A stretch of 64,000 bases of DNA from Alkalihalophilus pseudofirmus OF4. GTDB lineage: Bacteria > Bacillota > Bacilli > Bacillales > Bacillaceae_D. Of this stretch, positions 29,831 to 44,775 are shown one piece after another. Made by a program: the position numbers and the translations under genes. The notes beneath the pieces are model-generated. The model was not told where the DNA came from. It saw only the letters and a list, made by a program, of their open reading frames with translations, and did no database searches. The first letter of the stretch is position 1. Every line of letters begins with the position of its first letter. The stretch covers positions 3,038,001 through 3,102,000 of the forward strand of contig NC_013791.2 of the NCBI RefSeq assembly GCF_000005825.2, written 5' to 3'.

Positions 29831-31306
29831 TTATACTGCCTCTGTAAACAACTTCTTCTTATCCACCTTCCCTACTGGTGTTTTTGGTAATTCCTCAACA
29901 AAAGTTATTCGCTTCGGAATTTTGTATCGCCCTAATGTTCGTTGGCAATGAGCCAGCAGTTCCTCTTCTGACAGCGTAAAGTTTTTCTTTACTACAATAA
30001 ACGCACTCACTACCTCGCCCCACTTTTCATCAGCGAGTCCAACGACTGCTGCTTCAGAAACAGCCGGGTGCTCGTTTAGAACATGTTCAACTTCTAGGGG
30101 ATAAACATTTTCTCCTCCGGTAATAATCATATCTTTCTTTCGTCCAACAATGTAAAAATAGCCTTCCTTGTCTCTTCTACCTAAATCACCAGTGTGAAGC
30201 CAACCATTTATTACTGTATTAGTGGTTATCTCAGGCTTTTGCCAGTATGAATCAAAGACATGAAGACCACGGATGCATATTTCACCAACCTCATCATGGT
30301 CAGCCTCTTCTCCATTTTCTTTGATGATTTTCACCTCATTATAAAGCATCGGTTTTCCAACGGATCCTCGTTTTGAAACAGCTTCGCTTGGGTCGATGAA
30401 AAAGTTATTCGGGCCAGCCTCTGTTAGTCCGTATCCTTCCTTAAAGGCAAGCCCTTTTTTTTGAAACGCTTTATATATGACATAGGAGCAAGGGGCACCC
30501 CCAGAAAGAAAGGTATGCACTGAACGAAACGTAGCCTCTTTAAAGCTCGGTGCTTTGATGAGGAGATGATACATCGTCGGGACAAGTAAAATAACGGTAC
30601 ATTGGAATTCTTCAATTAATTGAATCGTTTTCTCGCCATCAAACTGGTCTGATAATATCACGGTGCCCCCTATGTGAAGGATAGGTAAGGATAGGGCGTT
30701 CAACCCTCCTGTATGAAACATCGGCAAGCTCGTTATCGTTTTGTCATCGCTCGTTAAGCCCCAGCTTGTAATAGTATTGATCATATTAAAAAAAACAGAT
30801 TGATGAGTTAATACGACTCCCTTTGGTAAACCTGTTGTCCCCCCTGTGTAAATTAAGAGCAGCGGGTCAGAGTCGGATATCTCCTCCTTTTTACAAGGAG
30901 CGGCTTTTGCAATCCATTCTTTATATTCTTGGTTTAACTGTACACTCGGAACCCCCCCATCAACTAATGAGATGAAGATTTCATCAACAAAAACTAAGCT
31001 CGGCTCACAATCAGAAAAAATATAAGCCAGCTCGGTGGATGAAAGACGCCAGTTCAACGGAACAAAAATAGCTCCAAGCTTTGTAGCGGCAAATAGTAAA
31101 TCAAAATAACTAATATGGTTTGGTGAAAGTAAAGCGATCCTGTCCCCCTTTTTAATGCCACGCTGCTGCAACATTCCAGCTAATCGCTCGGCTCGTTCAT
31201 TTAACTCCTGATATGTCCATCGTTCTTTCGTGCTTCCATCAATAATAGCAATATTCCAAGGGGTAAGCTGTGCTCTTTTGCATAACCAATCCTGCTCCCA
31301 ACTCAT
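29831..31306 (-). CDS. Acyl-/aryl-CoA ligase (AMP-forming)
   Basis: This 491-residue class I adenylate-forming enzyme activates a carboxylic acid to its CoA thioester. The ATP loop YTGGTTGLPKG is at residues 153–163, the adenylate-binding GYGLTEAGP follows, the hinge is GWLHTGDLGRRD, then GRKKDMIITGGENVYPLEVE, and the catalytic lysine is K480 (PVGKVDKK). It resembles medium-chain or aromatic acid ligases; the substrate cannot be read from sequence. It follows the hydrolase gene but a strong terminator intervenes, and it has its own activator-type promoter (31343–31374). GAGGAGGAG precedes the ATG. In context it would activate the imported acid. Confidence 0.9.
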   Translation of the reverse strand: MSWEQDWLCKRAQLTPWNIAIIDGSTKERWTYQELNERAERLAGMLQQRGIKKGDRIALLSPNHISYFDLLFAATKLGAIFVPLNWRLSSTELAYIFSDCEPSLVFVDEIFISLVDGGVPSVQLNQEYKEWIAKAAPCKKEEISDSDPLLLIYTGGTTGLPKGVVLTHQSVFFNMINTITSWGLTSDDKTITSLPMFHTGGLNALSLPILHIGGTVILSDQFDGEKTIQLIEEFQCTVILLVPTMYHLLIKAPSFKEATFRSVHTFLSGGAPCSYVIYKAFQKKGLAFKEGYGLTEAGPNNFFIDPSEAVSKRGSVGKPMLYNEVKIIKENGEEADHDEVGEICIRGLHVFDSYWQKPEITTNTVINGWLHTGDLGRRDKEGYFYIVGRKKDMIITGGENVYPLEVEHVLNEHPAVSEAAVVGLADEKWGEVVSAFIVVKKNFTLSEEELLAHCQRTLGRYKIPKRITFVEELPKTPVGKVDKKKLFTEAV

Positions 31307-31342
31307 TTACACTCCTCCTCTGCTTTCTTCGCTTAGGTTCAG

Positions 31343-31374
31343 TGTATAAAATGGACGTAACAGTCTAGTAACAA
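31343..31374 (-). promoter_or_regulatory. SARP-type activator box and -10 of the acyl-CoA ligase gene
   Basis: On the minus strand TTGTTAC (plus 31368–31374), a 4-bp spacer, CTGTTAC (plus 31357–31363), 8 bp, then TATACA (plus 31343–31348). Heptamer repeats at 11-bp pitch ending 8 bp before the -10 are the classic SARP activator layout. There is no good independent -35. The ligase start is about 35 bp downstream. Confidence 0.6.
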
Positions 31375-31405
31375 AAAACCCCTTTTCGTTTAAACCGAAA
31401 AGAGG
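31373..31405 (-). terminator. Terminator at the end of the hydrolase–Liv–KAS operon
   Basis: CCTCTTTTCG pairs with CGAAAAGGGG (one G·T pair) across a 7-nt loop, followed on the minus strand by six T. It overlaps the 3' end of the second hydrolase gene and separates it from the ligase gene. Confidence 0.88.
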
Positions 31406-32298
31406 CTCGTTTCCTTCTTTTTTAGAAAATCTTCCATAACCTTTGTTACTTGTGCTAAATCATCAATGAGCGGAGAGTGTCCGCAATCTTTTAATCTTAC
31501 ATAATATGCTCGCTCTCCCAAATCTTCTATTAATTCTTGAGTCATCACTTCAGAAATGACTAAATCATGCTCACCCCATAAAATCAGTACGGACTGGGAG
31601 ATATTATTTACTTCTCCACTGCCCTCTACCAATCCATTATGATGTTCACTCATATTAAATGTATTAAGTGCATAATATACATCTGCTAAATTTTTTTGAG
31701 TACACATGTCATCAATATATTTCTGATAGCGTTCTTCACTCGGCTGATTCTTTGTATAAATTAAGGAATCCCATATTTGCTTAAGTAAAACGGTATTACG
31801 TGTTAAGTAGGCCTCTTCAATTGGAATCGTCCTTACCGGATCAGCCGCTATCGCTTCCTTCGTCTCCAACCGCTCGAGACGACTTTCTTCTATCTGTTGA
31901 TAATATGGATAGCCCCTTGTAGAGGCAGAGGCGAGCAATACGACACGCCGTACCTGCTTTTCCTCTCTGGCTGCTACCTGAAGAGCGACTGCGCCACCTG
32001 TTGACCAACCGATTAAATCACAGGAAGCTATTTCTAGCTTTGAGAGAACTTCTCGAATGTCTTCAGCAAAATCTTCAATTGAATCAACTGCTCTATGATA
32101 GGTCGACTCTCCAAAACCTCGCATATCAATGGCATACACTTTAAAGGTTGGATCAAGACTTTCTAAGAGGAGATCCCAGTGCAATGAAGACGTCATATTG
32201 CCATGCAAAAGGACAACAACATCAGTTCCCCCTTCTCGTTCTCGATATGCAAGCCGTTCTCCATTGTTTAAGTCAACATATTTAAGCTGAATGTTCAT
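31390..32298 (-). CDS. Alpha/beta-hydrolase (second of the block)
   Basis: This 302-residue serine hydrolase without signal peptide would act in the cytoplasm. The oxyanion strand is VVLLHGNMTSS, the nucleophile elbow GWSTGGA, the acid Asp is in LILWGEHDLVI and the catalytic His in KDCGHSPLID. The substrate is unknown; an ester or thioester delivered by the neighbouring transporter is inferred. ATG 32298 follows AGGTGGGTAAAC and overlaps the end of the KAS gene by 17 bp, so the two are translationally coupled. The Ser nucleophile excludes OleB-type beta-lactone decarboxylases, which use Asp. Confidence 0.85.
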   Translation of the reverse strand: MNIQLKYVDLNNGERLAYREREGGTDVVVLLHGNMTSSLHWDLLLESLDPTFKVYAIDMRGFGESTYHRAVDSIEDFAEDIREVLSKLEIASCDLIGWSTGGAVALQVAAREEKQVRRVVLLASASTRGYPYYQQIEESRLERLETKEAIAADPVRTIPIEEAYLTRNTVLLKQIWDSLIYTKNQPSEERYQKYIDDMCTQKNLADVYYALNTFNMSEHHNGLVEGSGEVNNISQSVLILWGEHDLVISEVMTQELIEDLGERAYYVRLKDCGHSPLIDDLAQVTKVMEDFLKKKETSLFSV

Positions 32299-33334
32299 GT
32301 TTACCCACCTTCCCTTCATCCCAAATGATAGTCGTAGCTCCCCATGCATAACCGATACCAGCACTAACAAGAACAACAATATCTCCACTCTTAAGCATGC
32401 CGGCTTTTTCGGCTAATTCTAAGGATAGAATTTGATCGATCTGACCCAGATGTCCGTAATGGTCCAAGTAAATCGATTGCTCTTGAGTTAAGCCTAGTTC
32501 GTTTAGGATATAGTCATGGGCAGATTTTTTCATATGAAGCATCGCAACGTAGTCGATATCGCCAACAGAATAACCGCTTTTTTCAAGGGACGATTTAATG
32601 ACAGTAATAAAATTAGCCATTGAATTCTCCGCTAATCTCTCCTTCATACTTACAGGATCGATAACATCTAAATAGTTCTGCTTTTGCTCCAGTACTGCTG
32701 GTGACAGCGGCTGTTTAGTCCCGCCCGCTGGTACAACTACGTCCTCAGAAAAGGCGCCGTCTGTTATAAGTTTTGTTTCAAGCAGACGGTGTCTATGAGC
32801 ACCCTTTTTTAATACAATAGCTCCGCCCCCAGCTGCAAGATTATACATGAAACGAGTTCTTGGATTCGCATAATCGATAAAATCTACATTTCTGTAGCCT
32901 CCAGCAAGCAATACGGTTCTTACTGTGTCATCTGACTTCATTAAAGATTTAGCAAGGTTCAGCGCCATAATTGTCGTCCCGCAGCGTAAGGCTACATCAA
33001 ATGCCCATGCATTGATTGCACCAATACTCTCCTGAAGCTTAATCGCAGCCGTCCAGAGCGGATACTCTTTATGCTCTTCACCAATGTAAATAATGATATC
33101 TATATCAGCAGCATTGATTTGTGCTTTTTGTAAAGCTTTTTCGGCCGCCCAGATCCCCATTTGGCATGTGTGATCGTTTATACCAGGAATTGTTTTTTGA
33201 ACGATCCCAAGCTTTTCTTGAACAATTCCAATCGGTAAGTTGGCAGCTGCTGCTAGTTCTGATGCAGTCATTCTTTCTTCCGGTAAATAAATACCTGTCG
33301 CTATAATTCCTACCTTCTCTACTTCTAGATTCAT
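32282..33334 (-). CDS. KAS III-like condensing/acyltransferase enzyme with Cys-His-His site
   Basis: This 350-residue thiolase-fold protein resembles 3-oxoacyl-ACP synthase III. The nucleophile Cys118 is in DVALRCGTT and His267 in MLHMKKSAHD. The position that is normally Asn (YGNTSAAS in FabH) is His295 in DHYGHLGQID. Loss of the Asn suggests it does not do ordinary decarboxylative condensation. Acyl transfer, thiolytic cleavage or non-decarboxylative condensation are possible. It lies inside a Liv-transporter operon between a 53-residue protein and a hydrolase, overlapping both, so it is a specialised enzyme and not housekeeping FabH. The substrate is unknown. Confidence 0.85.
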   Translation of the reverse strand: MNLEVEKVGIIATGIYLPEERMTASELAAAANLPIGIVQEKLGIVQKTIPGINDHTCQMGIWAAEKALQKAQINAADIDIIIYIGEEHKEYPLWTAAIKLQESIGAINAWAFDVALRCGTTIMALNLAKSLMKSDDTVRTVLLAGGYRNVDFIDYANPRTRFMYNLAAGGGAIVLKKGAHRHRLLETKLITDGAFSEDVVVPAGGTKQPLSPAVLEQKQNYLDVIDPVSMKERLAENSMANFITVIKSSLEKSGYSVGDIDYVAMLHMKKSAHDYILNELGLTQEQSIYLDHYGHLGQIDQILSLELAEKAGMLKSGDIVVLVSAGIGYAWGATTIIWDEGKVGKHEHSA

Positions 33335-33492
33335 AGGTGCATCACCTGCTTAATATAATCCATTGCCTCTTCTAAACTAGCGCAAACGTATTCTTCTTCT
33401 GTTTGAACATGCTTAATCTTTATCCGCATCGTATCATGCGGGTGGACACGTAAAATAAAGGACGAAACAACTTGGTCAAGGACTTCTTCCAT
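33331..33492 (-). CDS. 53-residue hypothetical protein between livM and the KAS-like gene
   Basis: ATG 33492 opens 53 codons whose TGA overlaps the ATG of the KAS-like gene (ATGA). AAGGGAG lies 11 bp upstream and the livM stop 16 bp upstream, so it is embedded in the operon. The product starts MEEVLDQVVSSFILRVHPHD and ends EEAMDYIKQVMHL. It is acidic with two short helices likely and one Cys, with no membrane segment or signal. I do not recognise it. The coupling suggests a small partner or regulator of the KAS-like enzyme; this is inference. Confidence 0.7.
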   Translation of the reverse strand: MEEVLDQVVSSFILRVHPHDTMRIKIKHVQTEEEYVCASLEEAMDYIKQVMHL

Positions 33493-33508
33493 CACTATCA
33501 CTGCTCCC

Positions 33509-34534
33509 TTAGCTAAAGGTATCTTTTACCGCACCAGCTTCCATTTCTTTTCTGAGCTTTTCTTTCTTTTTATATTGGCGTTTATCCCACCAATGCTTCG
33601 TCGTTCCAACAATCCCTTTTGGGAAAAACATAACTACTAAAATGAAGATTATGCCAAATAAAATGACCCAACGCTCAAAAATCCAATGTACTTTTGCTAA
33701 GTCCATTAATCCATGACGAGCAAGCTCAATAATTGCTGCCCCCACTACGGAGCCAAATAGTGTACCGACCCCGCCAATTATGGTAATTAACAACACATCA
33801 AGCGAGAGCTCAACAGATAATACAGCTGTATTAACAAAACGTAAGCTCATTGCATATAGGATTCCAGCCAGCCCAGCAACCATTCCAGCTACAACATTGG
33901 CAATAACTTTATAGTGCATCACTTTAAAACCAAGTGATTCGACACGAGGCTCATTTTCACGAATGGCCTGTAATACCTTTCCCATCGGGGATTGAGTGAA
34001 GCGATCAAGGAAGATATACGTACCGACTAACAGAACAAGGGCGATTAAATAAAAGGAAACCCGGTCCCTGAAAAGCTCTGGTACAACGAATGTAAAGCCA
34101 TCGTTTCCCATTGTAAGAGAACGCCATTTCTCAGCTGTGACTAAAAACAAACTAGATACTGCAAGCGTTAGCATTGCAAAAAAGTGACTTTTTAATCTGA
34201 GCGTGAGAATACCAACCAGATAACTTACTACCCCTGTAAAAATCAGTGTAAGCACTATCGCTACGAAAAAAGCGGGCATTGTAGAGCCAAACATTTTCAA
34301 GCAGATAGCGACTGTATAGGCACCTATTCCAAAGAACATCGCATGACCAAATGAAACAATGCCAGTGTATCCGAGTAAGATGTCATAGCTCATCGCAAAA
34401 ACAGCAAAAATAAAAATTTGAGTGAGCATAATTAGTGCTGTACGCGAATCACTCACAAATGGAAATATAGCTAAACCTATAGCTAAAACAAGTAAAGTTA
34501 GTTTGAAGCGAGAGAGTTTTTGGAGGCTTTTCAT
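33509..34534 (-). CDS. livM: Liv-type ABC transporter permease, LivM family
   Basis: This 341-residue inner-membrane permease has about nine or ten hydrophobic helices and the family motif GYTGIVSFGHAMFFGIGAY near residue 60. The cytoplasmic coupling region contains LQAIRENEPRVESLGFK. It pairs with the LivH-like permease, whose stop overlaps its start (ATGA). Liv-family importers carry branched-chain amino acids, amides, urea or aromatic and other carboxylic acids. Given the enzymes around it, an organic acid or short ester is more likely here than leucine. The symbol indicates family only. Confidence 0.92.
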   Translation of the reverse strand: MKSLQKLSRFKLTLLVLAIGLAIFPFVSDSRTALIMLTQIFIFAVFAMSYDILLGYTGIVSFGHAMFFGIGAYTVAICLKMFGSTMPAFFVAIVLTLIFTGVVSYLVGILTLRLKSHFFAMLTLAVSSLFLVTAEKWRSLTMGNDGFTFVVPELFRDRVSFYLIALVLLVGTYIFLDRFTQSPMGKVLQAIRENEPRVESLGFKVMHYKVIANVVAGMVAGLAGILYAMSLRFVNTAVLSVELSLDVLLITIIGGVGTLFGSVVGAAIIELARHGLMDLAKVHWIFERWVILFGIIFILVVMFFPKGIVGTTKHWWDKRQYKKKEKLRKEMEAGAVKDTFS

Positions 34535-35400
34535 CGAACCGCCTCCTTCATGCCCATAATTCCAGATGGTTTAAAAATTAAAACGGCAAGCATGATTAAA
34601 AAGTTAACAGCAAGCGCAATATCCGGTGCGTAGTATCCAGCATAAGCGCCGAGCAAACCGACAATAATCGCCGCAACCATCGAACCAAGCACACTGCCCA
34701 TTCCACCGATGACAACAACAATAAAGGCTAAAATTCCGTATTCTAATCCAATTTCTGCATAAATAACCCCTGAATAAGGACCAAATAAAACTCCAGCTAA
34801 TCCTGCCATTGCAGCACCAAGCATAAAAACAAATAAGAATACTTTACGAATATTAATTCCAAGAGATTGAACCATTTCTTTATCCATAACTCCTGCTCGC
34901 ACAATGAGACCAATCTTTGTTCGGTTTAATAAGAAAAGCAACCCGAGAAATACGATCAATCCTACAGCAATGATAAACAATCGGTATTTAATTAAGTAAA
35001 GCCCTCCAATTTCCCAGCTACCTTGAAGCCAAAGCGGTGCCTGAGCTTGCAATATGTTAGGTCCCCAGAATACTTTCACGACCTCACTCAAGACGAGCAT
35101 CGCCCCTAAGGTAATCAGTAATTGTTGAATATGATTTCCATACACAGGCTTGATGATAAAACGTTCGAGTAAGTATCCAAGCACCATTCCAATGACCAAT
35201 GCTGCTAAGATTCCTGCTAAAAAGCTTCCTGTAGTTGTATAGGCCCAAATTCCAGCATAGGCTCCCCATAAAAACAAAGCACCATGGGCAAAATTTAATA
35301 CATCCATTAATCCAAAGATGAGCGTTAAACCTGCTGCTAAGAGAAAAATCAGCATGCCTGTTGCCAACCCATTAATTGTTATATTTGCAATCGTCTCCAC
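34531..35400 (-). CDS. livH: Liv-type ABC transporter permease, LivH family
   Basis: This 289-residue membrane permease has about eight helices and the LivH signatures GLMDVLNFAHGALFLWGAY and GGMGSVLGSMVAA. The cytoplasmic segment RAGVMDKEMVQSLGINIRK is the coupling loop. It lies 14 bp downstream of the livF-like ATPase gene and overlaps livM by four bases. It forms the heterodimeric channel with LivM. Substrate is inferred from context only. Confidence 0.92.
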   Translation of the reverse strand: METIANITINGLATGMLIFLLAAGLTLIFGLMDVLNFAHGALFLWGAYAGIWAYTTTGSFLAGILAALVIGMVLGYLLERFIIKPVYGNHIQQLLITLGAMLVLSEVVKVFWGPNILQAQAPLWLQGSWEIGGLYLIKYRLFIIAVGLIVFLGLLFLLNRTKIGLIVRAGVMDKEMVQSLGINIRKVFLFVFMLGAAMAGLAGVLFGPYSGVIYAEIGLEYGILAFIVVVIGGMGSVLGSMVAAIIVGLLGAYAGYYAPDIALAVNFLIMLAVLIFKPSGIMGMKEAVR

Positions 35401-35414
35401 CTATATCACTCCTT

Positions 35415-36119
35415 TTAGGCTATACCTAAATATTTACGTTTTAACTCTTCATCGCGACTAAGCTCCTCCATTTCACCTTTATGCACCGAAAGCCCATCAT
35501 CAATAATATAAAATCGATCTCCGATTGTACTTGCCATCATAAAGTTCTGTTCAACGAGGACCACCGTCGTTTTATCTTTCATTTCATTAATTGATTCCAT
35601 TACTTTTTCAACAATAATGGGTGCAAGCCCCTTACTTGGCTCATCAATGATTAGTAATTCATTGTTGTTCACATATGCTCTAGCAATGGAAAGCATTTGT
35701 TTTTGTCCGCCTGAAAGGTGCCCGCCTTGCTTTTTCCAGAATTTCTTTAAATCCGGGAACAAATCTATGATGTAATTCATGCTCGCTAATGTTGCTTCGT
35801 CTTTCTTTTTCATCGCTACATTCATATTTTCTTCGACCGTTAACCCACCAAAAATACCTTGATCCTCTGGAACATAGCCGATTCCCAAATTAGCTATTTC
35901 ATAGGTTGGCAGCTTATGAATCTCCTTGCCTTTATACGTAATGGCCCCTTCACGAACAGGGTTTAATCCCATGATTGAGCGAAGCGTTGTTGTTTTCCCT
36001 GCTCCATTTCGACCGAGCAACACCGTAACCTCACCTGGCTGCACCTCAAAAGATACTCCCTGCAAAATATGATATTGCTCGATATACGTATGAATATGAT
36101 CCACCTTAAGAAGCGTCAT
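35415..36119 (-). CDS. livF: Liv-type ABC transporter ATPase, LivF family
   Basis: This 234-residue cytoplasmic ATPase has Walker A GRNGAGKTT, signature LSGGQKQMLSIARA and Walker B ELLIIDEPSKGL. The conserved GYVPEDQGIFGGLTVEENM is typical of LivF. It overlaps livG by 14 bp, so the two ATPases are translationally coupled and form the transporter's motor heterodimer. Confidence 0.94.
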   Translation of the reverse strand: MTLLKVDHIHTYIEQYHILQGVSFEVQPGEVTVLLGRNGAGKTTTLRSIMGLNPVREGAITYKGKEIHKLPTYEIANLGIGYVPEDQGIFGGLTVEENMNVAMKKKDEATLASMNYIIDLFPDLKKFWKKQGGHLSGGQKQMLSIARAYVNNNELLIIDEPSKGLAPIIVEKVMESINEMKDKTTVVLVEQNFMMASTIGDRFYIIDDGLSVHKGEMEELSRDEELKRKYLGIA

Positions 36120-36870
36120 GCTGCATACCTCCTAAGTAAGCTGACTGCACCTGCTCATTATTCATAATCTCTTCTGGTTTACCATCAGCAAGTAATTCTC
36201 CGTGAAACAGCACCATCAAGCTATCTGAGAGATCAAGCACCATATCCATTTTGTGCTCAATTAACAATATTGTTCGACTGCGTTGATCACGAATTGATTT
36301 AATTACATCAAGAATCATCGGAACCTCTTCTAACGACATGCCAGCAGTCGGTTCATCTAATAGAAGCAATTCAGTCTCAAGCGCTAACAGCATCGCTATT
36401 TCAAGTTTTCTTTTTTCACCATGAGCCAAATTTACAGCTAGCTCTTCTGTCTTATCTTTAAGAAGAACTACATCTAGCAGCTCCAATGCCCGCTTTTCAA
36501 TGTGTTTGTATTTCGAAAAATGAGAGAAGATATTGTAACGGATACCTTGCTGTGACTGAACAGCTAACCGTACATTTTCATAGCATGTTAAATTCGGAAA
36601 TACATTTGTGATTTGAAAAGACCTTCCAATTCCAAGTCTAGTTCGTTCAGTGGCAGAAAGGTTTGTAATCTCCTTTCCATTAAAGATGACCTCCCCCTTT
36701 GTTGGCTTTAGCTGACCACTCAACATGTTAAAAAAGGTAGTTTTCCCTGCCCCATTCGGGCCGATAATTGATTTCAACTGATTACGCTCTATCGCAATTG
36801 TGACATCGTTTACGGCAACATGGCCGCCAAACGCAATCGTCAATCCTTTTGTTTCTAATATTGTTGACAT
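36106..36870 (-). CDS. livG: Liv-type ABC transporter ATPase, LivG family
   Basis: This 254-residue ATPase has Walker A GPNGAGKTTFF, the LivG-type signature LAHGEKRKLEIAMLL and Walker B LLLLDEPTAGMS. The segment GIGRSFQITNVFPNLT is diagnostic for LivG. AGGAGGAGAAAGG precedes the start. It is separated from the binding-protein gene by a 12-bp hairpin at 36893–36923, which could lower expression of the transporter relative to the binding protein. Confidence 0.94.
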   Translation of the reverse strand: MSTILETKGLTIAFGGHVAVNDVTIAIERNQLKSIIGPNGAGKTTFFNMLSGQLKPTKGEVIFNGKEITNLSATERTRLGIGRSFQITNVFPNLTCYENVRLAVQSQQGIRYNIFSHFSKYKHIEKRALELLDVVLLKDKTEELAVNLAHGEKRKLEIAMLLALETELLLLDEPTAGMSLEEVPMILDVIKSIRDQRSRTILLIEHKMDMVLDLSDSLMVLFHGELLADGKPEEIMNNEQVQSAYLGGMQHDAS

Positions 36871-36892
36871 CCTTTCTCCTCCTTTTTTAAAG

Positions 36893-36923: not shown

Positions 36924-36930
36924 ATAGTCA

Positions 36931-38163
36931 TTAATTATTGATAGGCGGCGCTGTTTCTTCTGGTGTTAGTTCACGAGAAAGAACAGGTACTGGATAGTCA
37001 TATTCAGGTGATTCTTCTAGCGTAATCGAATACATAGACTGAAGGGCTTGATGATCTTCTTCTCTAAACGTCATTTCTCCCTTCGGCGTATTAAATGTCA
37101 TGCCTTCCATGGTAGAAATGAGCAAGTCTGTATCTGTATCTCCACCAGTCTCCTCAAGCGCTTGCACAATAGCCATCGCCGCTGAAAATCCACCTGGTGT
37201 AAATAGATCCGGCATCTCGCCGTTATAGCGCTCTTGGTGTGTTTCAACTAACCAATCATTCACTTCGTTATCCGGAAGACTGTGATGATATACTGTAAAG
37301 CCTTCCATCCCGACAACCGCTCCCATTGTGCGTAAGGCTGCGATGTCAGGTGCTCCTGTGGAGATTTGAATTCCACGCTGTTGTACACCCATATCAGCAA
37401 TTTGCCCCCATGGATTGTTTGCTCCTGCCCAAATAACAAACAAGTAGTCAGGATCTGCATTAATAACTCGCTGAATATTTGAAGCAAAATCCACCCCAGC
37501 CGGGTCTGCATATTCTTCGTGAAGAACCTCTGCACCAAGCTCTTCTGCAGTATTTTTAAACGCACTCACGCCGTCACGACCAAATGCATTATCTTGGGCA
37601 AGGGTGGCAATTCTTACTCCCTCACCTGCAATTGCAGCTGCCCCGGCAGTTGCATCCTGTGAAGAGCTACGCCCTGTACGAAAAACATAACGATTCCAGT
37701 TTTCCCCAGTAATACTATCTGCTACTGCTGGTTCTACCACCATTATTTTCTCGTACTCTTCCATTAAAGGAAGTACTGCAAGCGTATCGCCTGATGAAGA
37801 TGAGCCAACAATAAAATCAACATTATAGTCTTCAAGTAAACGAGTTGCTTTGTGAACAGCCACGTCTGATTGAGTCTCTGTGTCTTCAACGTAATATTCG
37901 ATCTTTTTGCCGCCAACCTCCATCGTGCCATCAGTGGCATACTCCAACCCAAGCTCAAATCCCCTTACGGTTTGTGTGCCATATGCTTCTAAAGCTCCAG
38001 TTAGTGAGGTTAAAACCCCAACACGTACAACATCTTCTGCCTCAGTATTCTCTGGACTTTCCCCTGCTTCCTCACTGCCTCCTACGTCATCAGCTCCACA
38101 TGCAACAAGCATTGATGTCATCAAGGCCAACCCCCAGCCTATCAAGCTTTTTCTCCATCTCAT
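36931..38163 (-). CDS. Liv-type ABC transporter substrate-binding lipoprotein
   Basis: This 410-residue protein is exported and lipid-anchored: a basic N-terminus, a hydrophobic stretch and the lipobox LVAC with Cys22. An acidic Glu/Ser linker follows, then a periplasmic-binding-protein type I fold that begins VRVGVLTSLTGALEAYGTQ, as in LivK-like proteins. It captures the ligand outside the membrane for LivHMGF. ATG 38163 follows AAAAGGGGGAAACAAA. It begins 19 bp after the first hydrolase gene. The ligand cannot be deduced; Liv-type binding proteins include ones for aromatic and hydroxy acids. Confidence 0.92.
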   Translation of the reverse strand: MRWRKSLIGWGLALMTSMLVACGADDVGGSEEAGESPENTEAEDVVRVGVLTSLTGALEAYGTQTVRGFELGLEYATDGTMEVGGKKIEYYVEDTETQSDVAVHKATRLLEDYNVDFIVGSSSSGDTLAVLPLMEEYEKIMVVEPAVADSITGENWNRYVFRTGRSSSQDATAGAAAIAGEGVRIATLAQDNAFGRDGVSAFKNTAEELGAEVLHEEYADPAGVDFASNIQRVINADPDYLFVIWAGANNPWGQIADMGVQQRGIQISTGAPDIAALRTMGAVVGMEGFTVYHHSLPDNEVNDWLVETHQERYNGEMPDLFTPGGFSAAMAIVQALEETGGDTDTDLLISTMEGMTFNTPKGEMTFREEDHQALQSMYSITLEESPEYDYPVPVLSRELTPEETAPPINN

Positions 38164-38182
38164 TTTGTTTCCCCCTTTTGTT

Positions 38183-39070
38183 TTAAGAATTATCTGAATT
38201 ATATCTTCCTGTAGTTGCATGTAAGTTACAGACTTGCTCAATGAACGTTTTTGTAGAGGCTGCCACCTCTTTTGCAAAGTGAATAGCGATCGAAAAGTGA
38301 TTGGATTGGGGAATTTCTATCAATTCATAATTCTTGTAACGAGAGACTAGCTCATTACATTGTTGCTTTGAAATAACAAAGGCCTCCTTATCGTATAGAC
38401 AATCTGGTGCAAAGAAAATGAGAACAGGAACGTTTATTTTTTCATGCAACATGGTAATTTCAGCGGCAAGAAGATTTTTTAGTTCTTCTTCAATCGTTAC
38501 CTTACGAACTTTTGGTTGTACACTTCCATTTTCCATGTGATGGACATCATAATTAAAATAGCGTTCTAAGCCTTGATGCCATGGTTTAAAGAAATCAGTT
38601 TCCTTCATTTTAGAAAGAAATGTTTGATAGCTTTCATATTGATGATCGAGACGATTAATAGACGGGGTTAAGGCTGAAATAACACGTTCATCTAAGTTAG
38701 CTCCTCCATCAATAAGGATCAGCCTTTTTACAAATCGTGAATAATGAGCAGTAAAATAACTGGCAATCATCGCTCCTAGTGAATGCCCGACGACAATTAC
38801 ATTCTCTAATTTGAGCGCTCTTAATATTTCCACTAAATCTTCTGCATGTTCTTTTAAGCTGTAACCTGCAGCTGGCTTACTGCTGTTTCCTCTGCCCCGT
38901 AAATCATAGCTTAGGACACGATAATCCTTCACCCACTCTGATGCTAGTGAATCAAAAAAATGAGCATTAGCGGTTAAACCGTGTATGCAAACGATCACCT
39001 CCCCGCTGCCACCATGGTCGACCACGTTAAAGTCTAAATCCCGTACATGAACAGTTATACACCTCTCCAT
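38183..39070 (-). CDS. Alpha/beta-hydrolase (first gene of the Liv operon)
   Basis: This 295-residue cytoplasmic serine hydrolase has the oxyanion strand VIVCIHGLTANAH, the SYDLRGRGNSSKP segment, the nucleophile elbow VVGHSLGAM and the catalytic His in PQSNHFSIAIHF. The acid is likely Asp in FFAPDCLYD. It resembles esterases and meta-cleavage-type hydrolases. ATG 39070 follows AAGGGAGAAAGCGG. It is the first gene after an activator-type promoter (39111–39144), so it should be the most strongly expressed enzyme of the operon. Hydrolysis of imported esters or oligomers is inferred. Confidence 0.86.
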   Translation of the reverse strand: MERCITVHVRDLDFNVVDHGGSGEVIVCIHGLTANAHFFDSLASEWVKDYRVLSYDLRGRGNSSKPAAGYSLKEHAEDLVEILRALKLENVIVVGHSLGAMIASYFTAHYSRFVKRLILIDGGANLDERVISALTPSINRLDHQYESYQTFLSKMKETDFFKPWHQGLERYFNYDVHHMENGSVQPKVRKVTIEEELKNLLAAEITMLHEKINVPVLIFFAPDCLYDKEAFVISKQQCNELVSRYKNYELIEIPQSNHFSIAIHFAKEVAASTKTFIEQVCNLHATTGRYNSDNS

Positions 39071-39110
39071 CCGCTTTCTCCCTTCGAAGTATGAATTTGA
39101 TTTCTTTCCT

Positions 39111-39144
39111 ATCATAAAAAATTAAAGTTACAATTTTGTCACAA
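39111..39144 (-). promoter_or_regulatory. SARP-type activator box and -10 of the hydrolase–Liv operon
   Basis: On the minus strand TTGTGAC (plus 39138–39144), a 4-bp spacer, TTGTAAC (plus 39127–39133), 10 bp, then TATGAT (plus 39111–39116). The two heptamers differ at one base and are 11 bp apart, as in SARP-controlled promoters. The same block also reads as an imperfect 16-bp palindrome. No good -35 is present. Confidence 0.65.
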
Positions 39145-39172
39145 AAATAGTCAGCCTTTACAGGCTGACTAT
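39143..39172 (-). terminator. Terminator of the STAND–SARP regulator gene
   Basis: ATAGTCAGCC pairs with GGCTGACTAT across a 6-nt loop, followed on the minus strand by five T. It separates the regulator from the operon and abuts the activator box. Confidence 0.88.
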
Positions 39173-42100
39173 AGATGACTTAAATAAATTTTTTCTGTTG
39201 CTTCTTTAATCATTTTCCACATTTCTCTGGTTGTTTCGAGCGGGGCTACACCTAACTCGTCTTGAAGCTGCTGTTGGCAACGCTCATAGATACGAAGAGC
39301 CTGTGTACGGTTTTGTTTGCAATAATAACAATACATAAGCAGCCTATACGCTTCTTCCCAACAGCTATCTTCTGTTAAGATTTGTTCACACCAGCGAATC
39401 GCCTCATCAAACTTTTCTTCAGCGACACTAATTTGAGCAACTCGCTCTACTCCTCGTAAATATAAAACAAATAATTGCTCACGCAGTTCAATACACCAAT
39501 CATCGAAACGCCGGCTCGGCAAATACTCCCCGCGATATAACTCCAGACCTTTCACAAGCTTTTCTTTTGCCCGTTTCCGGCTTCGCTCCTCTAATCCTGA
39601 TTCAATGTAATAGATAAAGCGATGGGCATCAATATCTATGCTCGCCTCCTTATTCAGACCGTACATTTGGTCCTCACGAGTAATAAAAAAGGCTTCTTGG
39701 CGAGCTTTTCGATGTGGTTCAATGGCTTTATTCATTGCATTCAAAGCAACCTTTAAGTCGCGACTCGCGTCCTCCTCATTTTGACCAGGCCATAGTAAAT
39801 GACATATTTCAGATTTTGCAATAAACTGATTAGCTCTTGTGATAAAAAGTTGGAAAAGCTCACGCGCTTTATCACGCTTCCACCCTTTTTCATCAAGCTT
39901 ATCCTCCCCAAGCCACACTTGAAATTCCCCTAATGTTTGAACACGAATCGTATAGCCTGGGTGAGAAGCCAATTGAGCAAAACCAAGCTCTGCGAGAAGG
40001 GGTTCTACTAAATATGCCTCAACTTGATGTGTTTTTGCTTCTAGCAACAGTGGCGGTATGCACTGAATATCTGTGGGACCAAACAAGGTCTTATTAGAAA
40101 AAAAGAATTGAGAATTATGTTTTTGAATGAGGGTCAAGCAGCGTGTTATCGTCTTTTTAAAAGCTGATGAATTTTCTTGTCTTAAATAGAGTGACGAGAG
40201 CCAGTAAAGTGTGACAGTTTCTCCGAAACTTTCGCCACAGCTTCTAAAGGTCTTCTCACACCCATTCAAACGCTTTTCTGCTTCAATCAAATCACCCTGC
40301 TTAAAAGTGACAAGCGCCAAAGCTAGCTGGACTAAGCCGCTTAACCAACGATCTTTAACACGCTCTGGTTCTTCAAGAGCCACCTTCCCTATACGTAGCG
40401 CTTTATCATATTCTCCTTGCTTTCCATATAATAAACAAAGTCCCATATAAGCTTCTGATTTACCGCGTGACATCTTTAAATCACTCATCAACTTTAGCGA
40501 CGTTTCATAACATTGAATTGCAAGAGAGGGATCATAATCGTCTAGTAGCTGCACAGCATGACCCATTCGAGCCCATCCTACCGCCTCAACAAAAGGAGAG
40601 CGACGTTGAACTCCGCCTACGATCGCCGCCTCAGCCTGCTTTTTGGCGTGCTCTGTTAATCCCATTAAGCTATTTAATAAAGACAATAGCAAATCCCCTT
40701 CTCGGTGAGAGCTTGAGAGTTTATGATCCTTCTCATAAAGCTTAGCTTCCTGTAATAATTCCTTTGCTGTATGAAACTGACCTGTCCTCAAAAGGTATCG
40801 AGACTCAAGTTCAATATTTTTATATTCTGGATGAACAGCCTGAATTTTCACAAGCCAGGACTCAACTTCCTTTACTTCACCGAGGTTAAGAAGATTTTCT
40901 GACATCAAACTATAAAGTCTCACCTTGCGCTCTACACTCGTGTTTGTACGCTCCATATAATTAATCGCTTTTTGTAAATAAGGCTGTGCTTTTACAGGTT
41001 GGATTGTATCTAAATAGATTTGAGCGCGCCCTTCCATACTAAGGCTCAAGCCTTCAGCATCTTGCTTTTCTTCTGCAAGCTCTTCAAGTTTACGGTAACA
41101 AGTCATGGCTTGCTCAAATTTTGAATAGTACCGATTCATCTCACCTTCAAGATACCAAAGCAACCAATATTCGTCCTTCATTATCTCTGGGATTGAGTCA
41201 AGCGTAACCATGAGTCCTTCCATTTTACCATTGTGTAAAAGACGTATACCTTCGTGAACTAAAAGAGCAGACGCTTCCCTATAATCACCAGCCCGCATGT
41301 ATACTTCTAAGCTTTTTTCATAATCACCAGCAGCCTTATAGTAACAAGCTACTCTTTGCAAAAGGTTATCCTGTAAAATTGGATTTTTACTGAGTTGACG
41401 CAATAGAAAATCTCGAAACAAGGCATGATACCGGTACTGGCTCTTACCAATTTCTACTACAAACAAGTTCTGTTGAATGAGATGAGTAATATAATTTCCA
41501 GCATGCACAGCTTCAAAGACGGTTTGACAAAGCTTTTCATTAAACTCCTCAAACAAGCTTGTTTCTAATAAAAATTTCTTAATTTCTTCAGGTTGTCTTG
41601 AAAACGCTTCCATTGTTAGGAATCGAAAAAGCTCGTCGGTAGTCTCAAGACCATCCTGAAGAACAGCTTGAACTTCCCCATGTTCTTTCCACTGTTGACC
41701 AAGCATTTGCAAGGCAATTGCCCACCCTTCAGTCGCTTTTTCTATCTCTATCAACTCTTCTGGTGTACAGTCAATATTAAATACATCTGAGAGGAGAACA
41801 TCAATTTCTTCATTTGAGAAAATAAAATCAGTTTCGGTTAATTCAAGTAATTGTCCGTTCAACAGCCTTCGAGTAATCACATCCCACGTTGGCCGCACCC
41901 TTCCAGCAAGCACGATGTGAACGTTGGCAGGCGCTGATTCGATTAGTAGTTGGAGCCAGTCTTTAACAAGTTCTGAACGTTCTGTAATATGAATATCATC
42001 AAGCACACAAACAAATGGTTTTTTCAGTTGCAAAAGCTCATTGCAAAACTCTATACATATATAGTCGAGCTCCTCTTCCCACCCTTCAACCTCACCTGAG

Positions 42101-42417
42101 ATCAAATATTCAATAAGCTCTGAACCAAAATGCGGGAATTTCTCACGCACAGCATGTACAACATGAACAATAAAGTGAAAGAAATTTTCATCTTGTTTTG
42201 ACAAGCTGTACCAGCAGGATAGCTTATCAGAGGTATCCAAAAAGCTAGAAAGTGCAGAGCTTTTTCCATACCCTGGCCCTGTATGTATCAATGTTAGAGG
42301 ACACTCTTCAATTTGTTTTAATTGTTTCATTAATTTAGGTCGATAGATCATTGAACTACGCTGCAAAGGGGGAATAAATTTAGTCCGCAATACTGCTAAC
42401 CTTCGTTTCGGTTGCAT
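39169..42417 (-). CDS. STAND ATPase–SARP (BTAD) transcriptional activator
   Basis: This ~1082-residue regulator is built in three parts. The N-terminus is a MalT-like STAND NTPase with Walker A GPGYGKSS (residues 47–54) and a Walker-B-like VCVLDDIHI. The middle ~450 residues are helical TPR-like repeats. The last ~250 residues are not a LuxR helix-turn-helix but an OmpR-like winged helix (KRDKARELFQLFITRANQFI) plus a bacterial transcriptional activator domain (RVAQISVAEEKFDEAIRWCE). Such proteins bind an inducer and ATP, oligomerise and activate promoters with heptamer repeats. Matching boxes occur at 31343, 39111 and 42788. ATG 42417 follows AGGAGG. The inducer is unknown. Confidence 0.88.
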   Translation of the reverse strand: MQPKRRLAVLRTKFIPPLQRSSMIYRPKLMKQLKQIEECPLTLIHTGPGYGKSSALSSFLDTSDKLSCWYSLSKQDENFFHFIVHVVHAVREKFPHFGSELIEYLISGEVEGWEEELDYICIEFCNELLQLKKPFVCVLDDIHITERSELVKDWLQLLIESAPANVHIVLAGRVRPTWDVITRRLLNGQLLELTETDFIFSNEEIDVLLSDVFNIDCTPEELIEIEKATEGWAIALQMLGQQWKEHGEVQAVLQDGLETTDELFRFLTMEAFSRQPEEIKKFLLETSLFEEFNEKLCQTVFEAVHAGNYITHLIQQNLFVVEIGKSQYRYHALFRDFLLRQLSKNPILQDNLLQRVACYYKAAGDYEKSLEVYMRAGDYREASALLVHEGIRLLHNGKMEGLMVTLDSIPEIMKDEYWLLWYLEGEMNRYYSKFEQAMTCYRKLEELAEEKQDAEGLSLSMEGRAQIYLDTIQPVKAQPYLQKAINYMERTNTSVERKVRLYSLMSENLLNLGEVKEVESWLVKIQAVHPEYKNIELESRYLLRTGQFHTAKELLQEAKLYEKDHKLSSSHREGDLLLSLLNSLMGLTEHAKKQAEAAIVGGVQRRSPFVEAVGWARMGHAVQLLDDYDPSLAIQCYETSLKLMSDLKMSRGKSEAYMGLCLLYGKQGEYDKALRIGKVALEEPERVKDRWLSGLVQLALALVTFKQGDLIEAEKRLNGCEKTFRSCGESFGETVTLYWLSSLYLRQENSSAFKKTITRCLTLIQKHNSQFFFSNKTLFGPTDIQCIPPLLLEAKTHQVEAYLVEPLLAELGFAQLASHPGYTIRVQTLGEFQVWLGEDKLDEKGWKRDKARELFQLFITRANQFIAKSEICHLLWPGQNEEDASRDLKVALNAMNKAIEPHRKARQEAFFITREDQMYGLNKEASIDIDAHRFIYYIESGLEERSRKRAKEKLVKGLELYRGEYLPSRRFDDWCIELREQLFVLYLRGVERVAQISVAEEKFDEAIRWCEQILTEDSCWEEAYRLLMYCYYCKQNRTQALRIYERCQQQLQDELGVAPLETTREMWKMIKEATEKIYLSHL

Positions 42418-42787
42418 ATAACTCCTCCTCTCAATCATATAGCTTTTTTCTATTAGATGTTCCTTGGATTTTCCAGAACAATCTCTTGTCTCAACCTCAA
42501 TCTTTCTGACCGGAAAAAAGTCTGTCTGCTGCTTTATTACTATCTTTTCGGCTAGCAGGGTGATGATTTCCTGCTTAAATCAATAATATTATTTGTTTTT
42601 TACTTAAATTCACCAACTGGAACATTAGTCACTATAATTTTATCTATCGTAACATAACTCAGTTACAGAACTTTTATAAATTCATGAAATTGTACCATCC
42701 CCTAGATCCCTTCTTCATTTAAAGCACAGTTATTAAACATGTCTTATAACATATCTTTTTTTCTGATTGTTCATCACATCATTTCAC

Positions 42788-42821
42788 TTGTAACTTATAT
42801 GAAACTTTCCCCCTTCATATT
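42788..42821 (+). promoter_or_regulatory. SARP-type activator box and -10 candidate of the esterase gene
   Basis: TTGTAAC (42788–42794), a 4-bp spacer, ATGAAAC (42799–42805; 5 of 7 identical), 10 bp, then CATATT (42816–42821). Spacing equals that of the Liv-operon promoter. The implied 5' leader is about 150 nt. Confidence 0.45.
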
Positions 42822-42931
42822 TAAATAGTCAGGCCAATCCTGCACTAACTGCCCTAATTTTCAAACCCATCTTCTTGACAAGCGATGAGCCAGAAAACAA
42901 GCTAGTTTCAAAATTCTTAAAAAGGAGGAAA

Positions 42932-42964
42932 ATGTACTTACTATTATTTAGGTTTAAATTTTAG
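42932..42964 (+). CDS. 10-residue leader peptide upstream of the esterase
   Basis: AAAAAGGAGGAAA directly precedes an ATG that opens MYLLLFRFKF and stops at TAG 42962, only 17 bp before the esterase ATG. The esterase's own ribosome-binding site lies right after the stop. The peptide is hydrophobic with several Leu codons. It may be a translated leader that couples or attenuates esterase translation. Expression is not proven. Confidence 0.4.
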   Translation: MYLLLFRFKF

Positions 42965-42981
42965 AAGAGGAGAGGATTTAA

Positions 42982-44775
42982 ATGATTCAAACTAAGAATA
43001 TGTTGAAAGTTATACGTTCATTAATAATTATTGGAATATTCCATCTTTTAATCACATCCACTGTATTTGGGGAAGGGACATTTACTTCTCATTCATATGG
43101 CGGTAAGACTTATAAATTGTATGTACCTAGTTCCTATCATACTTCTGAACCCGTCTCATTAGTTGTCATGCTTCATGGCTGTACGCAAGATGCTAATCAG
43201 TTTGCTGCTGGAACAGAAATGAATACTATTGCAGAACGAGAATCCTTCATTGTTTTGTATCCAGAACAAACATCAAGTGCAAATTCTAGTAGATGCTGGA
43301 ATTGGTTTGAAACTGGACATCAAGCTAGAGGAAGCGGTGAGCCCGCCGTTATTGCTGGAATGGTTCAGCAAGTTAAAAATAATTTTGCTATTGATAGCGA
43401 TAACGTATTTGTGACAGGACTTTCCGCTGGAGGCGCAATGAGTGTCATTATGGGTGCGACTTATCCGGATGTATTCTCAGCAATTGGTGTAGCGGCTGGC
43501 TTAGAGTATAAAGCAGCCACTAACTCCATTCAAGCTTTTACTGCTATGAGCAGCGGGGGGCCAAACCCCAAAACACAAGGTACCTTAGCCTACAATGCAA
43601 TGGGTCAGTATAAGCAGGTGATGCCTACAATTGTTTTTCACGGAACAAGTGACTATACTGTACAACCTATTAATGGAGATCAAGTCATATCGCAATGGGC
43701 TAAAACAAACGATCTGGCCTACGGCGGAGTAGAAAATACGTATATAAATGATACACCAAATCAGACAAAGCAAGGACAGGTTTCAGGAGGGCGTAGTTAT
43801 ACCAATTACATCTATCAGGATAAGTACGGAATAACCATTTTAGAAAAATATTTAGTAAATGGCATGGGCCACGCTTGGTCAGGAGGGAGTACCCAAGGGA
43901 GCTACACCGACCCAAACGGTCCAAATGCGAGCGAATTAATGTGGCAGTTTTTCATGCAGGAAAGAGGAGAGCAGGACCCTAATGAAGATGACCCAGGTGA
44001 GGGGGCCCCTCCTATGACAACAGCATCACCCAACGGAGGCACTTATACGAGTCCAGTCAGTGTGACACTTCAGACTAACCGAGAAGCAAAAACCTACTAT
44101 ACAGTCGATGGTACAACACCAGATGAGAATTCACCTGTCTACTCCGAACCTATTTTTATCGAGAACTCTTCAACCTTAAGGTTCTACTCGGTTGATAGCA
44201 ACGGCTTATCCGAAGAGCTCCGTTCTGAGGATTATATGATTACTGAAGCAGCAAATGAAGTGATTTTATCGTCTATTGCACAGGAAGACGGCTTTGTCGG
44301 ACGTTTTAGTGCAGATGGATTAAGCACATCTATTCTAAAGGTGGGTGATAAGGGGATGTATAACACTGATACGTACCGCACGATATTATCATTCGATACC
44401 TCTTCCCTTTCGAGTACCCACACCCTCAAAGGGGCTAAGCTTAGAGTTTACCGAAAAGCCCTACAAGGTAATGTACAAACAATGGATGTAGATATGAAAG
44501 TGAATGCATTTGGCACATCTTCTTCTCTAGAGTCCATTGATTATTCATCAGCTGCAACCTATTCTAACCTTTTAACTGCGCAAGTACCATCACAAGATCA
44601 TCAATTCGTGGATTTTGAATTACCATCACATGTTCTAAAAGAAATTGCATCCAATAACAAGTTACAATTTCGAATTAAATCAGCGACCACAGCTTCGTTT
44701 ACGAGCAATGTATTGGAGATTCACGGAGGGGAGCATGCAGATTATGCACCGCAATTAATCGTAATCAAGGACTAA
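42982..44775 (+). CDS. Secreted PHB-depolymerase/feruloyl-esterase-family enzyme with binding modules
   Basis: This 597-residue enzyme begins with a signal peptide (basic start, hydrophobic 12–27, likely cleavage after VFG at 30). The catalytic domain (~33–330) has the oxyanion motif LHGCTQDANQF, the lipase box GLSAGGAM (Ser148), Asp224 in HGTSDYTV and His297 in GMGHAWSGG, characteristic of the esterase/PHB-depolymerase family. An acidic linker leads to a chitobiase C-terminal-like beta module (~345–417). A C-terminal DNRLRE/CBM-like beta domain follows (~420–597). Members cleave poly(3-hydroxybutyrate), feruloyl or acetyl esters; which one cannot be decided. It lies divergent from the STAND–SARP activator. 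GAGGAGAGG precedes the start. Confidence 0.88.
   Translation: MIQTKNMLKVIRSLIIIGIFHLLITSTVFGEGTFTSHSYGGKTYKLYVPSSYHTSEPVSLVVMLHGCTQDANQFAAGTEMNTIAERESFIVLYPEQTSSANSSRCWNWFETGHQARGSGEPAVIAGMVQQVKNNFAIDSDNVFVTGLSAGGAMSVIMGATYPDVFSAIGVAAGLEYKAATNSIQAFTAMSSGGPNPKTQGTLAYNAMGQYKQVMPTIVFHGTSDYTVQPINGDQVISQWAKTNDLAYGGVENTYINDTPNQTKQGQVSGGRSYTNYIYQDKYGITILEKYLVNGMGHAWSGGSTQGSYTDPNGPNASELMWQFFMQERGEQDPNEDDPGEGAPPMTTASPNGGTYTSPVSVTLQTNREAKTYYTVDGTTPDENSPVYSEPIFIENSSTLRFYSVDSNGLSEELRSEDYMITEAANEVILSSIAQEDGFVGRFSADGLSTSILKVGDKGMYNTDTYRTILSFDTSSLSSTHTLKGAKLRVYRKALQGNVQTMDVDMKVNAFGTSSSLESIDYSSAATYSNLLTAQVPSQDHQFVDFELPSHVLKEIASNNKLQFRIKSATTASFTSNVLEIHGGEHADYAPQLIVIKD

Follow-up and report, generated by a model that had tools for sequence, protein, structure and literature searches.

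In a 64,000-nucleotide stretch of the Alkalihalophilus pseudofirmus OF4 genome (NC_013791.2, positions 3,038,001 to 3,102,000 of the forward strand; hereafter the window, whose first letter is position 1), positions 29,831 to 44,775 hold a gene for a secreted esterase (phaZe), a divergent gene for an activator with STAND, TPR and SARP parts, and genes for a LivGFHM-type ABC importer with its binding lipoprotein, two hydrolases (abh1 and phaZi), a small protein, an enzyme resembling β-ketoacyl synthase (KAS) III and an acyl-CoA ligase (Table 1). We conclude that these genes very probably form a regulon for scavenging poly(3-hydroxybutyrate) (PHB), built along the lines of the maltose regulon, with an importer that would take up 3-hydroxybutyrate (3HB) or its oligomers. 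An earlier note on this DNA had named these genes, all of which we find again in translations and model scans of the window, and had read them as an ester-scavenging regulon, a reading that is now supported by an independent operator signal. The conclusion is drawn from sequence, namely from the conserved neighbourhood, from the operator and its dependence on the presence of the activator, and from the membership of the enzymes in known families.

The operator was found in the promoters of relatives. We used 80 named loci (the best 80 of 364 relatives, from a 15-activator alignment), mostly from Bacillaceae and some from Paenibacillus. A blind search for direct or inverted 5-mer repeats upstream of the binding-protein gene was carried out on 62 regions (72, the window's included, minus near-duplicates); 53 of them share a direct repeat whose period is 11 bp, and in 30 shuffles no repeat of any kind reached more than 6 regions. 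Of 71 loci, 63 have the exact core TGTAAC-N5-TGTAAC before the gene of the binding protein (in the other nine of the 80, no such gene is called after the activator), and in 60 of these 63 the best −10-like hexamer, mostly TATGAT, lies exactly 9 bp past the second heptamer. The resulting pattern, TGTAACY-N4-TGTAACY-N9-TANNNT, comes close to the layout of SARP promoters, for which passages of PMC10936776 give repeats 11 bp apart and a distance of 8 bp between the final repeat and the −10 box; with direct repeats at this period, about 8 bp from the −10 hexamer, the relatives' binding-protein promoters carry predicted SARP-binding sites. Exact matches to the box together with its −10 hexamer number 89 in the 80 loci, and the next gene is that of the binding protein in 64 cases, the ligase in 23 and a gene resembling those of short-chain dehydrogenases/reductases (SDR) in one, the remaining match being followed by the locus end.

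Across genomes, the box goes with the activator. Among 299 genomes of the order, 80 have the activator (E ≤ 1e-60), and the exact TGTAACYN4TGTAACY occurs in 75 of these against 25 of the 219 others (149 against 27 sites), the corresponding figures for a reversed-pattern control being 13 and 39 sites. Five activator genomes are without an exact box (G000, which is the window's own, G126, G181, G296 and G300), the first three of which have mismatched boxes. If a phaZe match is counted as full-length only when it reaches the C-terminal domains (21 of the 30 genomes with an esterase match), the activator is present in 13 of the 21 genomes with full-length phaZe and in 67 of the 278 others. Where full-length phaZe is not linked to the importer genes, the operator is found at it in all 10 activator genomes and in none of the eight others (Fisher's exact test, P = 2e-5). 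These 10 boxes have position weight matrix (PWM) scores of 17.9–28.5, lie 63–196 bp upstream of the match and, judged by eye, have TA...T at 9 bp; the best score in the eight phaZe genomes without activator is 1.8, and 360 shuffled upstream regions of relatives reach at most 9.3. The linked phaZe genes of G126 and G181 have boxes scoring 19.3 and 12.0. An operator common to unlinked phaZe and the importer operon is what one would expect if, as the earlier note proposed, the esterase and the importer genes serve one pathway. Boxes in G116, G141, G287 and G043 are, by eye, without the −10 spacing. In G297 (L163:3669-4968), a box with the right −10 spacing is followed by a gene of 418 codons that has no Pfam match and by one for an alpha/beta hydrolase, possibly a further member of the regulon.

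In the 4.25-Mb genome of A. pseudofirmus OF4 itself, 18 sites match the extended pattern with at most three mismatches, and five of them fall within the 15-kb locus (binomial P = 4e-9), which also holds three of the four genome matches with at most two mismatches; it is this clustering at the locus, not the number of near-matches, that constitutes the signal. The box of the binding-protein operon is the best extended match in the genome, and that of abh1 comes directly after a hairpin that by eye resembles the activator's terminator. The ligase box, weak when taken alone, is supported by its position, because the ligase follows an exact box in 23 of the named loci. Autoregulation of the activator was considered and dropped, the operator match facing its gene being weak (PWM 7.1), and no convincing target was found for a box near position 921370 of the genome. 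Where the earlier note saw one operon running from the first hydrolase to the second, the boxes instead mark several units with an operator each: abh1, the genes from binding protein to phaZi, the ligase, and phaZe.

The neighbourhood of the activator is conserved as well. Of the named loci, 75 extend at least 8 kb past the activator on its downstream side. Among these (locus ends lower some of the counts), 72 have LivGFHM and 72 the binding-protein gene on the strand of the activator; the importer genes mostly follow the activator and precede it in L095, L098 and L102. The three loci without the full set are L073, which ends after LivH, L094, where the sequence before the activator is only 115 bp long, and L078, which is without importer. 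KAS is found in 60, PhaZi in 59 and the ligase in 32 of the 75 loci, and KAS occurs in 74 of the 80 activator genomes against 10 of the 219 others. Extra genes occur in some loci: a thiolase gene, one for a FadX-like CoA-transferase, or a TetR-ligase-(MaoC)-KAS block. Such a block, with a second KAS gene, is inserted between activator and binding-protein gene in L042-L045, L073, L092, L093, L100, L106, L112, L113 and L115 (PRK06839/PRK06840-type in L043). phaZe is linked to the importer genes in the window's species (also G009, L136) and in two Alkalihalobacterium species (L038, L039), there at the 3' end of the operon. The earlier note had named an esterase never linked to the other genes in relatives as an outcome that would refute its reading; the linkage in Alkalihalobacterium, in a different arrangement, goes against that outcome.

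Family assignments point to PHB as the polymer. The secreted enzyme combines a catalytic domain with CHB_HEX_C_1 and DNRLRE domains and falls among the type 1 extracellular short-chain-length polyhydroxyalkanoate (scl-PHA) depolymerases (NF050058, 335.9 bits, cut-off 150), with a Ser-Asp-His triad. Its catalytic domain matches that of LtPHBase (8daj) at 423 bits, and its triad, S148-D224-H297, is positioned from the Ser121-His270-Asp197 triad given for LtPHBase in passages of PMC11544428, which list as substrates PHB and also polylactide (PLA) and polycaprolactone (PCL). The two enzymes thus have the same catalytic domain and triad (LtPHBase structures 8daj and 9byu), the two extra C-terminal domains of phaZe lying outside the match. 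A literature search by PDB code turned up the LtPHBase paper as the sole relevant one. The phaZ primers that, in passages of PMC10468675, detect a 1.77-kb gene in PHB-clearing Bacillus infantis encode, in our translation, NKCWNWF and DKGMYNTD, and phaZe has SRCWNWF and DKGMYNTD. Feruloyl and acetylxylan esterases score only 76 and 73 bits against the 423 of LtPHBase, and both were rejected. With good support, and narrowed with fair confidence, the substrate class is most likely PHB, which phaZe would hydrolyze. Longer secreted depolymerases occur in G042, G088 and G165 (L125, L126, L134), with open frames of 682-687 codons in which the match to the window's enzyme is split into catalytic and C-terminal parts, which suggests an extra domain.

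The second depolymerase, phaZi, belongs to the intracellular scl-PHA family (NF050089, 420.3 bits, cut-off 300). It matches the solved poly(3-hydroxybutyrate) depolymerase 8ynv (see also 8ynw) at 280 bits over residues 35-325, nearly its full length, with the GWSxGG lipase box and the CGHSP motif kept; it differs from the known intracellular enzymes by its place in an importer operon and in a cluster without PhaC association.

The activator joins a MalT-like N-terminal part to a SARP-like C-terminal part. The MalT model NF003420 matches residues 18-525 at 180 bits, well under its cut-off of 537, and no LuxR-type domain is listed. The MalT family has a LuxR-type C-terminus; the activator is MalT-like at its N-terminus only and is not a member of that family. 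At the other end, BTAD is found at 4.9e-20, over its cut-off, and residues 830-1082 match the AfsR model, with a score that falls far short of the cut-off set for the whole protein. A PDB search returned MalT (8bob) and AfsR (8jke, 8k60 and 8hvr), the AfsR chains over the C-terminal end, and with this AfsR-like part and BTAD the protein has the make-up of a SARP (an OmpR-type DNA-binding domain followed by BTAD), although no Pfam OmpR-type domain is listed on its own. The P-loop residues are invariant in alignment A1 (15 activators), and the protein is the single BTAD match in its genome at E ≤ 0.001. The 1082 residues given in the earlier note hold for a start at the ATG at 42417, and the first ATG gives 1089. 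In the window's own family, activator matches occur in 3 of 41 genomes (E ≤ 1e-40), two of them of one species and one partial at 29% identity; that the activator is so rare there, yet present in 80 of the 299 genomes of the order, suggests that it was acquired horizontally. In G109, G236 and G164 the activator match is in two pieces, which lie on two contigs in G236, and the gene is apparently interrupted in G109 and G164.

Two known systems are close to this arrangement. The maltose regulon of enteric bacteria (MalT, MalEFGK), like the regulon proposed here, has a STAND activator, whose N-terminus the window's activator resembles, in control of an ABC importer and polymer-degrading enzymes; here, however, the output would be of SARP type (OmpR winged helix plus BTAD) rather than LuxR type, the polymer a polyester rather than a glucan, and the importer is Liv-type. 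In its workings the system would resemble the maltose regulon, apparently with promoters of SARP type. With AfsR and the large Streptomyces SARPs, as they are described in passages of PMC10936776, the activator has in common the OmpR-type and BTAD domains, nucleotide-binding and TPR parts, and operators in which direct repeats, spaced by 11 bp, keep a constant distance to the −10 box. It differs from them in its reversed domain order (MalT-like part and TPR first, SARP last), in its TGTAACT operator and in its putative control of catabolism in Bacilli instead of antibiotic synthesis.

The importer is of the Liv/HAAT family, with a binding protein, two ATPases and two BPD_transp_2 permeases (the ATPases assigned from translation and place, not scanned separately). 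The closest solved binding protein is 3n0x (348 bits), whose listing names no ligand. Relatives of the binding protein (E ≤ 1e-40) occur in seven plasmid records, all of which were viewed. On a Mariluticola plasmid, a set of binding protein, LivGFHM and hydrolase comes directly after an annotated 3-hydroxybutyrate dehydrogenase; on plasmids of Nitratireductor, Hoeflea, Mameliella and Roseinatronobacter, the last gene of the set encodes an alpha/beta hydrolase, and genes for a ligase, MaoC, enoyl-CoA hydratase and TetR adjoin it; and on a Chloroflexota plasmid it is found with reductase, KAS III, CoA-transferase and hydrolase genes. The hydrolases of these sets are weakly similar to those of the window or give no match at E ≤ 1e-6, and a search of the plasmid records with PhaZi gave no match at E 1e-30. 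On three haloarchaeal plasmids (L034, L035 and L036; three of 10 matches viewed), a KAS gene directly follows a binding protein-ATPase-permease set (one ATPase is missing from the L036 table), and two of the three have an alpha/beta hydrolase and an AMP ligase a few kb upstream; the L034 binding protein is only 29% identical to that of the window.

A cargo of 3HB, its oligomers or related hydroxyacids fits these contexts best, and oligomers are favored because an intracellular depolymerase is encoded in the importer operon. HbtABC, in passages of PMC10130141 the only confirmed bacterial 3HB uptake system as of 2023, is alike in its proposed cargo; it is a three-gene system whose class those passages do not state, whereas the window has a five-gene Liv-type ABC importer, perhaps for oligomers. 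We lean, with some caution, toward a Liv-type ABC importer dedicated to PHB oligomers (or 3HB), a transport step of which the literature searched gave no description. It would be part of a module whose relatives occur in Bacilli, Alphaproteobacteria, Chloroflexota and haloarchaea, and which in Bacilli would be run by the STAND-SARP activator through a TGTAACT direct-repeat promoter that would also recruit unlinked secreted depolymerases.

Table 1. Genes and candidate operators of the locus (window positions; PWM match position in brackets where it is given)
Feature	Coordinates	Strand	Basis and remarks
phaZe, secreted type 1 short-chain PHA depolymerase	42982..44775	+	NF050058, Pfam Esterase_PHB, 8daj match
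STAND-TPR-SARP activator, divergent from phaZe	39169..42438	-	BTAD, MalT and AfsR models
abh1 (hydrolase 1), alpha/beta hydrolase	38183..39070	-	Abhydrolase_1 1.3e-25; listed open reading frame from 39115
Substrate-binding lipoprotein	36931..38163	-	Peripla_BP_6
LivG-type ATPase	36106..36870	-	Translation and position; about 65-81% identity in other genera
LivF-type ATPase	35415..36119	-	Translation and position
LivH-type permease	34531..35400	-	BPD_transp_2 4.2e-39
LivM-type permease	33509..34534	-	BPD_transp_2 6.6e-41
Small protein, 56-codon gene, motif SFVxR ... WRIKxxHVQxxxE	33331..33501	-	Conserved family
KAS III-like enzyme	32282..33334	-	NF005308 536.8 bits, cut-off 315
phaZi (hydrolase 2), intracellular short-chain PHA depolymerase	31390..32388	-	NF050089
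Acyl-CoA ligase	29831..31306	-	Nearest model Staphylococcus FadD, below cut-off
Operator and −10 of phaZe, TGTAACT TATA TGAAACT N9 CATATT	42789..42821	+	PWM 18.7; 2 mismatches; 175 bp before start codon
Operator and −10 of binding-protein operon, TGTAACT TACA TGCAACT N9 TATAAT	38198..38230	-	PWM 18.3 (38213); 1 mismatch
Operator and −10 of abh1, TGTGACA AAAT TGTAACT N9 TATGAT	39111..39143	-	PWM 12.7 (39126); 2 mismatches
Degenerate operator and −10 of ligase, TGTTACT AGAC TGTTACG N9 TACACT	31341..31373	-	PWM 6.0 (31356); 3 mismatches
Weak operator-like match facing activator gene, uncertain; one good repeat and TACGAT	42646..42678	-	PWM 7.1; 3 mismatches

Two start codons were corrected by eye from the window translations and the upstream sequence. 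That of the binding protein is probably at 38163, which gives the protein a lipoprotein signal (MRWRK...LVAC), and that of abh1 is probably the ATG at 39070, because the ATG farther upstream, at 39115, coincides in part with a −10 hexamer. The ligase gene is followed directly by one for a YtnP-family lactonase (28757-29662; 475 bits, cut-off 425), upstream of which no operator box was found (best PWM −6.9).

The remaining products are less sharply classified. abh1 is found in four of the 80 named loci. The KAS-like enzyme has an apparent triad C118-H267-H295 (positions that we take, by motif, to correspond to those of FabH), with His where FabH has Asn. The triad of FabH is Cys-His-Asn, and with an apparent Cys-His-His the enzyme would lie outside the KAS III (FabH) family. 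Of 77 aligned rows, 76 have His at the third position; in the Cys column, 65 rows have Cys and 12 have Ser, the latter perhaps through misalignment of an adjacent Cys. A role as thiolase stand-in is not supported, as the thiolase family c21 (two members scanned) occurs in eight loci, each of which also has KAS. The ligase falls short of the Staphylococcus FadD model NF052269 (556.5 bits, cut-off 650) and, among the 25 models shown, passes only the broad subfamily PRK06187 (492.5, cut-off 476). The small protein, whose gene stands between those of LivM and the KAS-like enzyme, was identified through its motif in 52 of 65 loci, and a 12-row alignment has eight invariant columns; it has no credible Pfam or NCBIfam match, and its structural model (52 residues; predicted local distance difference test score 85.6), with three predicted strands and a helix, gave no match at E ≤ 0.001 in a fold search.

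An SDR reductase gene lies right after PhaZi in 44 of 75 relatives and is absent from the window's cluster. It is FabG/PhaB-like: the one member scanned exceeds the cut-offs of NF004198, TIGR01830 and two subfamily models of wider scope, and scores under that for acetoacetyl-CoA reductase. Its nearest homologue in the A. pseudofirmus genome (56%) is in a separate operon, so the earlier note's term "self-contained" holds for most of the regulon and fails for this step. In that operon (L185, C1:1616500-1627500), a gene for a sigma-54-type activator is followed by genes for a FadX-like CoA-transferase, a GntP-like permease and two SDR enzymes (named by eye). This operon looks like a separate 3HB monomer pathway, which would leave oligomer uptake to the SARP-controlled regulon; HbcR is a sigma-54 regulator of 3HB metabolism in Pseudomonas according to passages of PMC8657755. 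Near 3.761 Mb of C1 (L135:2986-4470) lies a gene that resembles phaC but is divergent (GYCLGG; at 260 bits it falls short of the cut-off), adjoining a 165-codon gene, both flanked by two cytochrome P450-like genes; the two are perhaps a distant PHA synthase pair.

Several observations weigh against a PHB-scavenging regulon. The comparison of 10 with eight phaZe genomes is phylogenetically clustered, with four families against three. Among short depolymerase paralogues, a good box is found for one of three in activator genomes (G042, PWM 26.3) and for none of 11 in others (maximum 11.4), and the two without a box in activator genomes speak against a universal rule. An unlinked ligase gene in G297 has the repeat and not the 9-bp spacing, and in three genomes of one genus (G212, G237 and G188; L160, L161 and L162) an exact TGTAACY repeat, with the −10 spacing absent, precedes a 569-587-codon gene whose L160 protein has an IseA domain. 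In the A. pseudofirmus genome the boxes are degenerate and none is exact (ligase 6.0, abh1 12.7); a box with a score of 16.1 lies inside an unrelated window gene, at 10868, so that one score of this magnitude by itself proves nothing; and near-matches do not exceed the reversed control (18 against 25, or 34 against 39 with two mismatches and the −10 part left out). phaZe is linked in only two of the 80 named loci (L038 and L039). The ligase resembles long-chain FadD, and on the Haematobacter plasmid the binding-protein relative is found with beta-oxidation (fatty-acid) genes, so the cargo may vary.

The last two points bear most directly on a reading in which the regulon is real and its cargo and substrate are another hydroxyacid or fatty-acid ester (3-hydroxy fatty acids, or polylactide-like or cutin-like oligoesters), PHB being one of several. 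We consider this unlikely, while giving it some weight: LtPHBase cuts PLA and PCL besides PHB, and the nearest models of the ligase and of some relatives' CoA-transferase are Staphylococcus FadD and FadX, both below cut-off, but the regulon contains two different PHB depolymerase families, one of them intracellular and both over their scl-PHA cut-offs, and in Mariluticola the importer lies beside a 3-hydroxybutyrate dehydrogenase. It is distinctly improbable that the cluster mainly mobilizes the cell's own storage PHB, with the importer recycling leaked 3HB. PhaZi does belong to an intracellular family, and the genome does have the phaC-like gene beside a 165-codon gene; the activator is, however, not associated with PhaC, matches above the TIGR01836 cut-off occurring in 10 of 80 activator genomes and 32 of 219 others (P = 0.71), or 29 and 60 when PhaC matches of at least 195 bits are added (P = 0.15), and the secreted depolymerase has the same operator. 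The alternative offered in the earlier note, a Liv importer for an unrelated acid with an esterase as chance neighbour, might appeal to the rarity of phaZe linkage. We hold it to be very improbable indeed in view of the operator common to the unlinked phaZe genes, the second and different linkage in Alkalihalobacterium, and the enrichment of the activator in genomes with full-length phaZe.

The scheme that follows for the PHB-scavenging regulon is inferred throughout, in its substrate, in its inducer, in each of its reactions and in whether oligomers or the monomer are the cargo, as is any role for the small protein and the KAS-like enzyme. Secreted PhaZe would cut environmental PHB to 3HB and short oligomers, which the Liv-type ABC importer would take up, and in the cytoplasm PhaZi, perhaps with Abh1, would cut the oligomers to 3HB. 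The ligase would then form the CoA ester, a PhaB/FabG-like reductase (encoded beside phaZi in many relatives and elsewhere in the A. pseudofirmus genome) would convert it to acetoacetyl-CoA, and thiolysis would yield acetyl-CoA. Through its STAND-TPR part the activator probably detects an intermediate that has been imported, whereupon the SARP domain would bind the direct repeat of 11-bp period, which stands at a constant distance from each unit's −10 box.

Among the matches listed in open-licence full-text literature (titles and starts of abstracts), no description of a PHB regulon with an ABC importer, or of a SARP in Bacillus, was found; the system is a new combination of known kinds of parts. 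PHB is widespread among bacteria as a storage polymer and is also sold as a biodegradable plastic. A sharp operator names the sensor, the importer, the enzymes and the promoters, so that, if the reading is true, the capacity to scavenge PHB could be read from genomes. If true, it would also place SARP-type promoter activation in a catabolic pathway of Bacilli, outside the antibiotic setting in which it is best known.

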